Of a stretch of DNA of 64,000 nt, positions 6,045 through 40,491 are shown piece by piece; the stretch's first letter is position 1, and each line of letters begins with the position of its first letter. Made by a program: the position numbers and the translations under genes. The DNA comes from Planctomycetaceae bacterium (GTDB lineage: Bacteria > Planctomycetota > Phycisphaerae > SM23-33), in assembly GCA_039680605.1 (NCBI GenBank), contig JBDKTA010000043.1, positions 1 to 64,000 on the forward strand. The letters are read 5' to 3'. The notes below the pieces were generated by a model that saw only the letters and a program-made list of their open reading frames with translations, was not told the origin of the DNA and ran no database searches.

Positions 6045-7004
6045 TCACGTGCTTACAAACACCTTGCGCGGTTTGAGCAGGCGGTCCGGCGTTGGCTCGG
6101 ACAGCGCGAGAAGGCCGCCGTCCGGTGCGAGCAGGACCACCTCTTTCGCTGTCGTGAATTGATTGTCCGCAAGGCGCAGCGGCTGGCCCATATTGATGCG
6201 CTTCACTTGCTCATCATCGAGCGTCAGCTTCGGCAAGTGCTCGACGGCCGCCAGCGGGGAGATCAAGTCGCCAGGCAGTTCCACTGCGTCGACGCTCTTG
6301 GCGTTTTCCAGGCGGAACTCGCCCACGGCGGTTCGGGTCAGCGCGGAGCAGTAACCTCCCACACCCAGGGCGGCGCCGATGTCGCGCGCCAGCGAGCGGA
6401 TGTACGTGCCCGCCTGGCAGCGCACGTCGATCTCCAGGTGCGGCCAGTCGTAGCTCAGCATCGTCATCTCGTACACGTGTACGCTGCGGGCCTTGAGGTC
6501 GAAACTCTTACCCGCGCGAGCGAGCTTGTACGCCCGCTGGCCATCCACGTGGACGGCAGAATGCGCCGGCGGCACCTGGGAGATCGTCCCGGTGAATTGC
6601 CGCAGCGCCGCGCGCACGGCGGATTCATCCGGCGTAGCATGGGCGTCTCGCCCATGAGTCGCAGGGGCATCTTGCCCCTGCCTTAGATCTGATTCCACGG
6701 GCGAGACGCCCGTGGGACTCACAGGCAAGATGCCCGTGCTACGGGTGATGGGCCCTTCGGGGTCGTCGGTGGCGCTGACGGCCCCGAGGGTGACTTGCGC
6801 GCGGTAGCACTTGACGGCCGCCTGCACGTAGTCGGCCAGTCGCGTGGCGTGTCCGACGCAGAGCACCAGCACGCCGTTGGCGAAGGGGTCGAGCGTACCG
6901 GCGTGGCCGATCTTGACGCCGCGCCCCAGGCGGCGGCGCGCGGCGGCCACGATATCGTGGCTGGTCGGCCCGGAGGGCTTATGGATGTTGAGGAATCCGA
7001 ACAT
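6045..7004 (-). CDS. truB: tRNA pseudouridine(55) synthase with in-frame repeat insertion
   Basis: TruB converts U55 of tRNA T-loops to pseudouridine. The 319-residue protein begins FGFLNIHKPSGPTSHD and has the catalytic motif GHAGTLDPFANGV with Asp39. QAGTYIRSLARDIG is the conserved KGTYIRSL-type motif, and a PUA-like tail follows. Residues 88-125 (TGILPVSPTGVSPV through HGRDAHATP) are not TruB sequence. They are the translation of a 109-bp dispersed element that also occurs at 38975-39083. The insert falls after DDPEGPITR and before DESAVRAALRQFTG, a surface-loop position in known structures, so the enzyme may still work. All core motifs on both sides are intact and in one frame. Confidence 0.93.
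   Translation of the reverse strand: MFGFLNIHKPSGPTSHDIVAAARRRLGRGVKIGHAGTLDPFANGVLVLCVGHATRLADYVQAAVKCYRAQVTLGAVSATDDPEGPITRSTGILPVSPTGVSPVESDLRQGQDAPATHGRDAHATPDESAVRAALRQFTGTISQVPPAHSAVHVDGQRAYKLARAGKSFDLKARSVHVYEMTMLSYDWPHLEIDVRCQAGTYIRSLARDIGAALGVGGYCSALTRTAVGEFRLENAKSVDAVELPGDLISPLAAVEHLPKLTLDDEQVKRINMGQPLRLADNQFTTAKEVVLLAPDGGLLALSEPTPDRLLKPRKVFVST
6634..6742. repeat. 109-bp quadruple-palindrome element inside truB
   Basis: The element has four blocks: GGGCGTCTCGCCC, GGGCATCTTGCCC, GGGCGAGACGCCC and GGGCAAGATGCCC (the first two slightly varied). It is bounded by GTAGCA and TGCTAC. Blocks 1 and 3 are reverse complements, as are blocks 2 and 4. Each block is also a small GGGC/GCCC hairpin. 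The same layout and length recur at 38975-39083. Confidence 0.93.
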
Positions 7005-30787: not shown

Positions 30788-30816
30788 TTGCGGTTTCTTC
30801 CGTTGCGAGGTAGCGT
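30788..30816 (+). promoter_or_regulatory. Weak candidate leaderless promoter
   Basis: TTGCGG at 30788-30793 and TAGCGT at 30811-30816 are 17 bases apart; the ATG at 30824 follows after seven bases. Confidence 0.3.
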
Positions 30817-30823
30817 CGAATTC

Positions 30824-31471
30824 ATGGGATACCCCATCGTCATCGCCCATCATCTGATCTGGACCGTCTACGGGTACTGGTTGCCCAATGACCCCCGCGG
30901 AAGCATGTCGCGCACGATTCGATGCGACGTGTTGCGCGAACTGGGCGAGTTGCATCATGGGCGGCGGGCGGTGCAACCTGCGTCGCGAGACATCAAGGCG
31001 TTCTATGCGCAAGCTGTGCAGCTTCTGCGCCACGAGTTGCTCGTGCTCGACGCGGCGGCGAGAGCGGTTGTTGCTGAGAGCGTTGCGGAAACGATTCGTG
31101 ACAGGCGCTACACATGCTGGGCTTGCGCCATCATGGACGACCATGTGCATATGCTCCTTCGCAAGCATCGAGACCCTGCGGAGGAAATGATCCGAGCATT
31201 TCAACTGGCGACGCGGGATCGACTTGGGGCTCTAGGGCACAGGAAGATCGGTCATCCCACCTGGGGCGGACCAGGGTGGAGCGTGTTCCAGGATTCTCCT
31301 GACGATGTTTGGCGGACGATCTGGTACATCGAGAACAACCCCCCCAAACTCGGATGGGCGCGTCAGAAGTGGGCGTTTGTGACGCCATACAACAATTGGC
31401 CTCTGCACGCCGGCCACAGTCCCCATTCCCCCTACGTCCGCCGAATGGGCGGACACAACGCAAGTGGGTAA
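30824..31471 (+). CDS. REP-associated tyrosine transposase-like protein (RAYT, Y1 family)
   Basis: This is a 215-residue protein of the Y1/IS200-like superfamily. HLIWTVYGYWLPNDPRGS is the characteristic opening, CWACAIMDDHVHMLL contains the HxH metal motif, and TIWYIENNPPKLGW matches the conserved YIxNNPxKxGL segment. RAYTs are single-copy domesticated relatives of transposases thought to spread or process REP palindromes. No IS ends or second ORF are seen. A REP-like palindrome lies just upstream, and a related sequence (GCGCTTGCGGCTTCGCG) lies just after the stop. Confidence 0.8.
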   Translation: MGYPIVIAHHLIWTVYGYWLPNDPRGSMSRTIRCDVLRELGELHHGRRAVQPASRDIKAFYAQAVQLLRHELLVLDAAARAVVAESVAETIRDRRYTCWACAIMDDHVHMLLRKHRDPAEEMIRAFQLATRDRLGALGHRKIGHPTWGGPGWSVFQDSPDDVWRTIWYIENNPPKLGWARQKWAFVTPYNNWPLHAGHSPHSPYVRRMGGHNASG

Positions 31472-38341: not shown

Positions 38342-38503
38342 GATTCACCGCGGAGATCGCGGAGGTCGCAAAGAAGGATTAAAGGTCGGGAGGATGAATG
38401 GATGACTGGATGGGTGGATGACTAAACTGTCGAAACAACCTGATCTGCTTCTTTTATACTTCTGTCTTCCTCTGCGTTCTCCGCGATCTCTGCGGTGAAA
38501 TCC
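38341..38503. repeat. Inverted pair, CACCGCAGAG family (copy 8)
   Basis: ATTCACCGCGGAGATCGCGG followed by AGGTCGCAAAG faces CTCTGCGTTCTCCGCGATCT followed by CTGCGGTGAAAT about 90 bases away. Between them is a GGATGAATGGATGACTGGAT simple-sequence stretch. The right arm ends two bases before the next start codon. Confidence 0.85.
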
Positions 38504-38504
38504 C

Positions 38505-38978
38505 ATGCCGTTCCTGATCGACGCGAACAATCTGATGCACGCCCTGGCTTCGGCCGGAGTGCTGGTCGGGCGCGAGGGGCTGGCGAAGCTTCTGGCGCCG
38601 CTGGTGCTGAAGGACCGCGTGCATGTGGTGTTTGACGGCGCGCGGCCGCCGCTGCACGTGGCCCAGCAGATCGACGCTTGCGGCGTGCAGTCGACCTTCT
38701 GCCCGGCCGGACCGGCCGACGCGATGATCATCAAGGCCATCGCGGCCGACAGCGCCCCGCGCCGCCTTACGGTCGTCAGCAGCGACCACGAGATTCGCGC
38801 CGCCGCCCATCACCGTCGGTGCATCAGCGTCACCAGCGAAGCGTTTGCCGCCACGCTGGCGCATTCGCGCACGCCCGCGGCGGGGCAAGAGGACGAGCCG
38901 CAAGAGAAGACCAAAGGCTTAACCGAATCCCAGACTCGGGCGTGGCTCAAGGAGTTCGGGTTCGACGATGACGATTAG
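38505..38978 (+). CDS. NYN-domain nuclease-like protein (YacP type)
   Basis: This is a 157-residue protein with the NYN/PIN-like pattern: FLIDANNLMHAL, VHVVFDGARPP, GPADAMIIKAIAAD and TVVSSDHEIRAAA. The conserved Asp residues are present. YacP/Rae1 relatives cleave mRNA at the ribosome. The gene has no ribosome-binding site; a repeat ends just before its ATG. Its stop codon TAG (38976-38978) lies in the end of the 109-bp element. Confidence 0.82.
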   Translation: MPFLIDANNLMHALASAGVLVGREGLAKLLAPLVLKDRVHVVFDGARPPLHVAQQIDACGVQSTFCPAGPADAMIIKAIAADSAPRRLTVVSSDHEIRAAAHHRRCISVTSEAFAATLAHSRTPAAGQEDEPQEKTKGLTESQTRAWLKEFGFDDDD

Positions 38979-39083
38979 CACGGGCGTCTCGCCCGTGAGT
39001 CCCACGGGCATCTTGCCTGTGGCGAAGATCATCCTGCACGGGCGGGACGCCCGTGCGACTCATGGGCAAGATGCCCATGCTAC
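38975..39083. repeat. 109-bp quadruple-palindrome element between convergent genes
   Basis: The block order is the same as in truB: GGGCGTCTCGCCC, GGGCATCTTGCCT, GGGCGGGACGCCC, GGGCAAGATGCCC. The length is also 109 bases when aligned end to end. The left end TTAGCA supplies the TAG stop of the NYN gene. The right end TGCTAC supplies, on the other strand, the TAG stop of the GH28 gene. Confidence 0.94.
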
Positions 39084-40393
39084 TGTTTCGCCCCGCCCAG
39101 GTCCGCCTCCTGGACGTCATGGCAGAAGATCGTCGGCCGCGCGTCGGGCTTAACAGGGTGAAGCCGAACGTTTCGCAGCGTCAGGCCGCGGAGGTGCGCG
39201 GCATAGAGGCCGCTGGCGGGAACCGTGCGCTTGAAGCAGAAATACTCCGGCCACCAGCGCCCGATCTGCTCGGGCGTCAGGTCCGGCAGGGGCGAGGGGT
39301 CGATCTCGCCCGCGGCAGCGCCTCCGCCGGTGGTCAGCGATATGTCGGCCAGCGTGATATTCTCGATGCAGTGGCCGGCCAGACCCAGCAGCATGATGGC
39401 CGAATCTTTGCCGCACATGGACGAATCGGCCACGATGTTGCTGAAGGTCATGTGACCCATCCGCTGCATCGGCGCCACGCCCGGTGGCGCGTCGACGCAG
39501 GCCCGCTGCTGGCCGAAGGTCATGAAGATCGGCCGCGGGACGTTCTCCATCACCAGGTTCGAGAACGCCATGTTCTCCATCACGCCGCCCTCGTAGAGCT
39601 GGATCTTGAGGCCGCTGTCTTTGATGTCGCGAAAGACGCAGTTGGTGACGGCCACGTTGCGGATGTCGCCGCGCGACAGCAGCCCGATCCGCATCCCCGC
39701 CCAGTGGCTGCAGAAGACGCAGTTGCTGACCGTCACGTCGCGGCAGGGGCGGTCCGGCCGCGACGCCTGCAGGCAGATCGAATCGTCGCTGGTGTCGAAG
39801 GAGCAGTTGCTCACGCGGACGGCGGTGCAGCCGTCGAAGTCCAGCCCGTCGCCGTTGCCGTTGGCGCGGCTGGAGATGGTGACGCCGTCGACGGCGATGT
39901 CGTCGCAGTACAGCCACGCCGAAGTCCACGCCGCCGGGTCGCGCAGCGTGATGTCGCGCATGCGAATGCCCGAGCAATCGAGAAAGCGGATCATCATCGG
40001 CCGATAGAACGGCTTTTGCCCAGTGTGTCTGAAGGTCTCGTGCCCGCCGCTCCCGTCGATGGTGCCAGCCCCCTCGATGGCGATTCGTCGCGCCCCGCGC
40101 GCGAAGATCAGGCACCGGTCCATGTGCGGCTCGTCGCGGTACATGTTCTTGTACACGTCGGTAGCGTAGTCGGCGATGTCCGTGCTGCCCACCAGCGCCG
40201 CCCCAGCCGCCACGTGTAGCGTGACATCATCTTTAAGAAAGATCGTCCCGATGACAAACCGCCCGCCCGCCACCAGCACGCCGGCTCCCTTGACGCGGCT
40301 GCACTCATCAATCGCCGCCTGCACCGCACGCGTGTTGACGGTATCGTCATCGCCGATCGCCCCGAATGTCCTGATGTCGATCATGTCGTTCAT
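39080..40393 (-). CDS. GH28 polygalacturonase-like protein
   Basis: This is a 437-residue right-handed beta-helix protein. It opens DIRTFGAIGDDDTVNTRAVQ, typical of GH28. NGNGDGLDFDG and FDTSDDSICLQ match the NxD and DD catalytic motifs; SHWAGMRIG stands where GHG is usual, and DSGLKIQLY matches RIK. Loss of the His in GHG makes activity on plain polygalacturonan uncertain. No signal peptide is seen. The start is taken at ATG 40393; a GTG seven codons earlier is in frame. Its stop codon lies in the 109-bp repeat. Confidence 0.83.
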   Translation of the reverse strand: MNDMIDIRTFGAIGDDDTVNTRAVQAAIDECSRVKGAGVLVAGGRFVIGTIFLKDDVTLHVAAGAALVGSTDIADYATDVYKNMYRDEPHMDRCLIFARGARRIAIEGAGTIDGSGGHETFRHTGQKPFYRPMMIRFLDCSGIRMRDITLRDPAAWTSAWLYCDDIAVDGVTISSRANGNGDGLDFDGCTAVRVSNCSFDTSDDSICLQASRPDRPCRDVTVSNCVFCSHWAGMRIGLLSRGDIRNVAVTNCVFRDIKDSGLKIQLYEGGVMENMAFSNLVMENVPRPIFMTFGQQRACVDAPPGVAPMQRMGHMTFSNIVADSSMCGKDSAIMLLGLAGHCIENITLADISLTTGGGAAAGEIDPSPLPDLTPEQIGRWWPEYFCFKRTVPASGLYAAHLRGLTLRNVRLHPVKPDARPTIFCHDVQEADLGGAKQ

Positions 40394-40491
40394 GGGCGGC
40401 ACTATACCGTGCAAACTAAATGGCCAGGTTTAAATTTGCATGAGCGTCTAAATTGCACTTGGCTCCCCGTGCGACGGTGCCGGCAACAGGA

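Follow-up and report, generated by a model that had tools for sequence, protein, structure and literature searches.

Two convergent genes in the window, by which we mean the whole stretch of 64,000 nucleotides analysed here (contig JBDKTA010000043.1 of a Planctomycetaceae bacterium), are separated by a palindromic element at 38975-39083, and both of them end on it. This raises the question why one palindrome should carry the stop codons of both its neighbours. The gene on the left (38505-38978, + strand) is identified as a YacP-like NYN gene by its ORF and a match to PF05991 (NYN_YacP); it ends in GAC GAT TAG, giving the protein end WLKEFGFDDDD*. The gene on the right (39080-40414, - strand; ORF and PF00295 match) belongs to the GH28 family and ends on its own strand in AAA CAG TAG, with the stop at 39082-39080. 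The initial annotation had assigned the NYN stop to the TAG of the left end (38976-38978, + strand) and the GH28 stop to the TAG of the right end (39080-39082, - strand, CTA on the + strand). Both assignments are exact in the ORFs, so that one palindrome indeed caps both proteins with the TAGs of its outer tags.

Sequence, arm complementarity, folding and the family consensus describe the element as a REP doublet, that is, a head-to-head dimer of GTAG-tagged palindromes that belongs to neither strand in particular. It reads TTAG-CACGGGCGTCTCGCCCGTG-AGTCC-CACGGGCATCTTGCCTGTG-(15 nt)-CACGGGCGGGACGCCCGTG-CGACT-CATGGGCAAGATGCCCATG-CTAC, in agreement with the ends TTAGCA and TGCTAC noted at the outset, and has the look of a repeated, mobile palindrome. 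Its two inverted halves hold four 19-nt palindromes, again without strand: CACGGGCGTCTCGCCCGTG at 38979-38997, CACGGGCATCTTGCCTGTG at 39003-39021, CACGGGCGGGACGCCCGTG at 39037-39055 and CATGGGCAAGATGCCCATG at 39061-39079. The arms of the inverted repeat (I1) are 46 nt long and 80% complementary, and the folding energy is -80.2 kcal/mol (z = -9.8 against shuffles). The left tag TTAG differs from the family tag GTAG in one base, and the right tag CTAC is GTAG read inwards. A different inverted repeat, accgcggagatcgcggaggtcgc ... cgttctccgcgatctctgcggtg, lies at 38345-38500 between the LigT-like and the NYN genes; a similar motif occurs downstream of an NYN relative in locus L056.

The source genome (G000; 5.23 Mb in 72 contigs) contains many such elements. 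The exact pattern GTAGCAYGGGC(N5)GCCCRTG occurs 178 times in it, and its reversed control not once. Of 35 genomes in the same family, 12 contain the exact pattern. Element statistics were taken from 2.46 Mb, about 47% of the genome, in which a home-made codon-usage caller found 1921 genes. This part holds 87 clusters of one to eight palindromes each, 68 of them outside genes. Among the 71 clusters of the first 2.06 Mb, the outer tag is most often GTAG (32/71 left and 33/71 right ends), followed by GTGG and GGAG. The family tags point outward, as in head-to-head dimers. The TA...TA ends had suggested a mariner-like MITE with a TA target-site duplication, a reading that was dropped because the conserved tag is GTAG. 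In the case of the intergenic copies, a depletion between divergent genes was observed directly (4/65 against 24% of the intergenic space, p = 1.6e-4), and between convergent genes there was no enrichment (13/65 against 19%, p = 0.46). Tandem GTGG- or GGAG-tagged palindromes with a period of 31-33 nt, often inside ORFs (C9:148451-148760, C4:28862-29102 and similar), resemble a stop-free subfamily.

The initial annotation also suggested that the element may end both transcripts. A functional bidirectional terminator selected between convergent genes, with TAG stops that are incidental, would fit the very stable hairpin (-80 kcal/mol) and the convergent position. Moreover, one consensus terminator-like match was found at 39061-39079 (+), where 0.3 were expected in shuffles, its tail being only CTACTGTTTC. 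Against this, at least six T in 10 nt were found in only 2 of the 174 flanks in the 2.46 Mb, and without a T-tract downstream of the elements intrinsic termination is not supported. The missing convergent enrichment and the copies inside ORFs, where termination would do harm, also speak against it, and we consider a selected terminator distinctly unlikely.

How common the use of the outer TAG as a stop codon is could be determined on the other copies. In the 2.46 Mb, of the 78 outer ends tagged with TAG, 20 coincide exactly with the stop of a called gene, whereas only 545 of 16527 TAGs overall (3.3%) are gene stops (p = 7e-13). When the element ends were slid by 1-25 nt, only 0-6 coincidences remained. 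The suggestion that TAG ends are used as stops more often than expected thus holds for the copies in this part of the genome. It follows that a TAG which merely happens to lie beside a palindrome is refuted as an explanation for single ends. The double cap is a different matter: of the 13 convergent sites in the 2.46 Mb, the one in the window is alone in having both genes capped exactly, and the single-cap rate alone predicts at least one such case with P = 0.63. The double cap is therefore real but not special. To this extent it agrees with coincidence, which as an account of the whole we regard as practically negligible.

The next point is whether the element made these gene ends, as the initial annotation implied. 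NYN orthologues from other genera, which are without the element, mostly stop at TGA and end at the same place or within about 12 residues of it (e.g. WLREFGYDE* or WLREFGFDE*). The nearest GH28 orthologue (60% identical) has an element-free TAG stop nine residues earlier. As these element-free orthologues stop almost at the same place, the element lies at native gene ends, and the idea that it created them is not supported; judged from these alignments, it would trim or add at most a few residues.

Native ends could also mean that the transposase targets stop-codon sequences (e.g. TAG/TAA tetranucleotides) and that the element was inserted beside stops already there. The excess of exact coincidences at zero distance, the nearby ends of the NYN and GH28 orthologues, and five further ends directly preceded by a native TAG (TAGTAG) are all in line with this. 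However, the NYN orthologues mostly have TGA, not TAG; a valS target within one genus, described below, is an internal linker without TAG; and TAG is constant in the family tag wherever the element lies. Stop targeting as the general explanation is accordingly rather unlikely.

What happens to a gene that enters an element depends on the phase of entry. Genes entering TAG-tagged ends stop at the TAG in 20 cases, stop at a TGA 20 nt further in in 6 cases, and read through in 5 cases, all five inside ORFs and in one and the same phase. This split deviates from 1:1:1 (p = 0.001), with the TAG phase taking 20/31 (p = 0.0004). In the window element, the TGA that stops an entry in phase 2 is at 38996-38998 (+), 20 nt inside the left end, with a mirror site on the - strand, and is formed by the palindrome end ..RTG plus A. 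Phase 1, which the initial annotation had overlooked, meets no stop anywhere in the element on either strand (38977-39081), reading STGVSPV...HGQDAHA on the + strand and SMGILPM...HGRDARA on the - strand. One base off the TAG, all 35 codons are thus open on either strand, the + translation being STGVSPVSPTGILPVAKIILHGRDARATHGQDAHA. As a whole, the phase sets the effect on the gene: a TAG cap, a TGA cap, or a read-through linker. Part of this phase bias could stem from target preference at stop codons and not from selection. This rule of stop, stop and open is testable, and describes how a mobile palindrome may be tolerated anywhere in a coding sequence. We count the three-phase behavior as new, whereas the TAG stop habit of GTAG-REPs is already published (PMC3733652).

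The tips themselves have a known function elsewhere. In biochemically studied REP systems, recognition depends on GTAG 5' of the hairpin, and so does the choice of the cleavage site in the Marinomonas group 3 system (PMC8266576). The termini of GTAG-REPs often supply TAG stops (PMC3733652). As GTAG is a transposase recognition and guide motif (PMC8266576), the stop role is probably a by-product. This bears on the proposal that inward-pointing TAGs make insertion near gene ends harmless. Tips selected as such a safety device would agree with the over-representation of the TAG phase; on the other hand, the transposases of characterized REP systems require GTAG (PMC8266576), and REPs in many phyla carry it (PMC3733652). 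Moreover, another phase of this very element is open, and copies tagged GTGG spread well with no stop at all. The guide motif is the better explanation of the inward TAG, and selection of the tips for safety appears very unlikely, if slightly less so than pure coincidence.

It is, in our opinion, highly probable that the window element is a non-autonomous REP doublet (REPIN/BIME type) whose TAG is a by-product of the guide motif, whose phase decides its effect, and which is kept where it does little harm. Such an element would probably be moved by a REP-associated tyrosine transposase (Y1, RAYT/TnpA-REP). The TAG at each end would belong to the GTAG guide motif, so that recognition would fix the inward TAGs. 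A gene entering in phase 0 would then stop at the TAG, in phase 2 at the TGA 20 nt inside, and in phase 1 it would read through. Copies would be kept where the harm is small, either at gene 3' ends as caps or in the open phase inside genes as peptide inserts. We infer from the few divergent copies, together with the few TAG-tagged copies inside genes, that selection may have shaped this distribution; a specific benefit for the host need not be assumed.

In-frame copies inside Pfam-confirmed genes could be observed directly. A second copy in the window (6634-6742, GTAG...CTAC, without strand) lies in the open phase and in frame inside truB (6045-7004, - strand), whose TruB_N match resumes past the insert. 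In G000, in-frame copies were found in truB and in genes for a KsgA-type rRNA methylase, an ABC transporter, a penicillin-binding protein, a GH3 glycosidase and a DUF255 protein. A TAG tag is present in 6/19 intragenic elements, against 51/68 intergenic ones (Fisher p = 0.0008). Both ends carry TAG in four intragenic elements, which are 101, 113, 170 and 230 nt long, all with a length of 2 modulo 3, whereas their intergenic counterparts have no common length modulo 3. The DUF255 gene (C21:97588-99900, - strand) contains one in-frame element inside, and a second element supplies its TAG stop. REPs in unrelated bacteria have also been reported to target truB (PMC3733652).

Regarding the mobilizing enzyme, 15 Y1_Tnp matches were found in G000. 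Only one of these loci (C4:19301-19939) is flanked by inverted palindromes of the same family, and these flanking copies are of the GTGG type and not of the GTAG type. The other Y1 transposases of G000 were discarded as mobilizers, as none of the remaining PF01797 loci has family palindromes nearby. The flanked protein scores 36.8 against PF01797, over the cut-off of 23, and matches NF047646 with E = 3e-21 and 75.7 bits, under the curated cut-off of 80. A PNHVH motif and one tyrosine are invariant in nine aligned RAYTs. From REP through RAYT to REP, the block continues the reading frame of etfB without a stop, giving a 545-residue ORF at C4:18782-20416 (- strand; loci L070/L071 and L202). The window itself contains a 227-residue ORF at 30788-31471 (+) with an HVH motif and weak RAYT similarity (E = 1e-5); no Pfam match was found over its RAYT-like stretch, and by its sequence it is possibly a divergent Y1-type protein.

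Close relatives of the etfB-embedded RAYT (51-59% identity) are present in eight other genomes of the family, in each case inside the valyl-tRNA synthetase gene valS. Seven of these inserts lie in the linker before the editing domain (..YPL | insert | THVTVATTRPETM..), and one (G006) near the C-terminus. For valS there is one strong match per genome, with G002 showing it in two pieces and a few genomes having only fragments. Among relatives the valS linker is either empty (10-22 residues), or occupied by a REP or REP remnant (G047, G011, G018, G049, G050), or by REP-RAYT-REP. In one genus, three genomes have an empty linker and G047 carries a clean GTAG...CTAC doublet in frame, read as CGT AGC ... 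CTA CGA, so with TAG out of frame.

A profile scan with the RAYT alignment over 84,980 species genomes then gave 570 relatives; among the best 80 of these 570, 49 have at least 90 open codons in frame on both sides. In ten ORFs scanned with Pfam, Y1_Tnp has host domains around or beside it. The hosts include ValS, LeuS, AlaS, MetH and Sua5, and further a DinG-type helicase, NAD synthase (nadE), GcpE/IspG, a chorismate-binding enzyme and ETF; for two of them, the chorismate-binding enzyme and ETF, Pfam recognized just the C-terminal half of the host, and in etfB the N-terminal half was read by eye. Loci with an embedded RAYT in valS, leuS, alaS, metH, sua5, dinG-type, nadE, ispG and other genes are L203-L210, L222-L249 and L252-L326; as the Pfam scan covered ten ORFs, some of the other embedded hosts may be chance open frames. 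The HUH motif is present in all 79 of the 79 loci checked. No splicing domain was found in the ten Pfam-scanned ORFs, with only Y1_Tnp between the host halves.

For 19 ValS-RAYT sequences, pN/pS was 0.34 in the insert, 0.58-1.07 in the REP linkers and 0.21-0.24 in ValS, values that serve as a rough guide only since synonymous sites are near saturation. A quick RAYT tree required 34 changes of host label and placed the NAD-synthase copy and the second valS site inside the valS clade. AlphaFold2 prediction of ValS-RAYT with 19 sequences gave a mean pLDDT of 53 and a pTM of 0.30; pLDDT rose to 70-80 only within the RAYT part (about residues 255-390), and hence no conclusion is drawn on the fold of the fusion.

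Altogether we think it probable, with somewhat less confidence than for the doublet, that this RAYT lineage lives and spreads as stop-free in-frame inserts in essential genes. The hosts, as part of the same reading, would be valyl-, leucyl- and alanyl-tRNA synthetase, MetH, Sua5, the DinG-type helicase, NAD synthase, IspG, EtfB and others. The flanking palindromes would be translated as linkers (TGVSPV... and ...HGRDARAT), the host would stay functional, and at gene 3' ends the same REP ends would serve as TAG or TGA caps.

Inteins are mobile enzyme domains that lie in frame inside essential genes, including those of aminoacyl-tRNA synthetases. The embedded RAYTs are similar in this respect, a mobile enzyme domain in frame inside an essential gene. 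They differ in that no splicing domain was seen in the ten scanned ORFs, the mobility enzyme is an HUH transposase, and the flanking palindromes would be translated as linkers.

In the case of the doublets, the closest known system is that of the GTAG-REPs, which were reported also from the PVC superphylum (Di Nocera et al. 2013, PMC3733652). Shared features are a short palindrome with GTAG at its foot, the arrangement in head-to-head dimers around a spacer, a copy number in the hundreds, convergent or unidirectional placement, the use of TAG tips as stops, and the presence of a few copies in frame within genes, among them truB and those of tRNA synthetases (PMC3733652). Compared by text description, the present family differs in that each half consists of two tandem palindromes (GTAG-pal-agt-pal) and in that many copies are tagged GTGG or GGAG. 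As a stop-codon donor, the window element is an ordinary GTAG-REP, known in kind. Similarly, REPINs (Bertels & Rainey 2011, PMC3116915) and REPtrons/RAYTs (Nunvar 2010, PMC2817692; TnpA-Y1 survey, PMC6006769) are non-autonomous palindromic doublets and a Y1 (HUH) transposase gene flanked by the same palindromes. In these three papers the RAYTs are stand-alone genes, whereas the flanked RAYT of G000, like many of its relatives, is embedded in frame in a host gene. The survey excluded TnpA-Y1 proteins of unexpected length as fusions or annotation errors (PMC6006769). Rickettsia palindromic elements (RPEs; PMC3733652, PMC10969869) are also palindromic repeats in frame in unrelated housekeeping genes; they measure about 150 bp, and the text consulted describes no associated transposase, whereas the present family has in addition GTAG tags, stop capping and a RAYT embedded in a host gene.

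It is for the embedded RAYT lineage that we found no description in the literature. This concerns both in-frame embedded RAYTs in general and a RAYT paired with valyl-tRNA synthetase, and is weak evidence, as the search covered few subscription journals. The lineage bears on the long 'HGRDARAT / TGVSPV' stretches and the transposase domains annotated inside tRNA synthetases of planctomycetes and their relatives. A lineage of transposases seems to be carried within essential proteins; there it would be expressed with the host gene, and its loss would require an exact deletion, which bears on the long persistence of REP systems.
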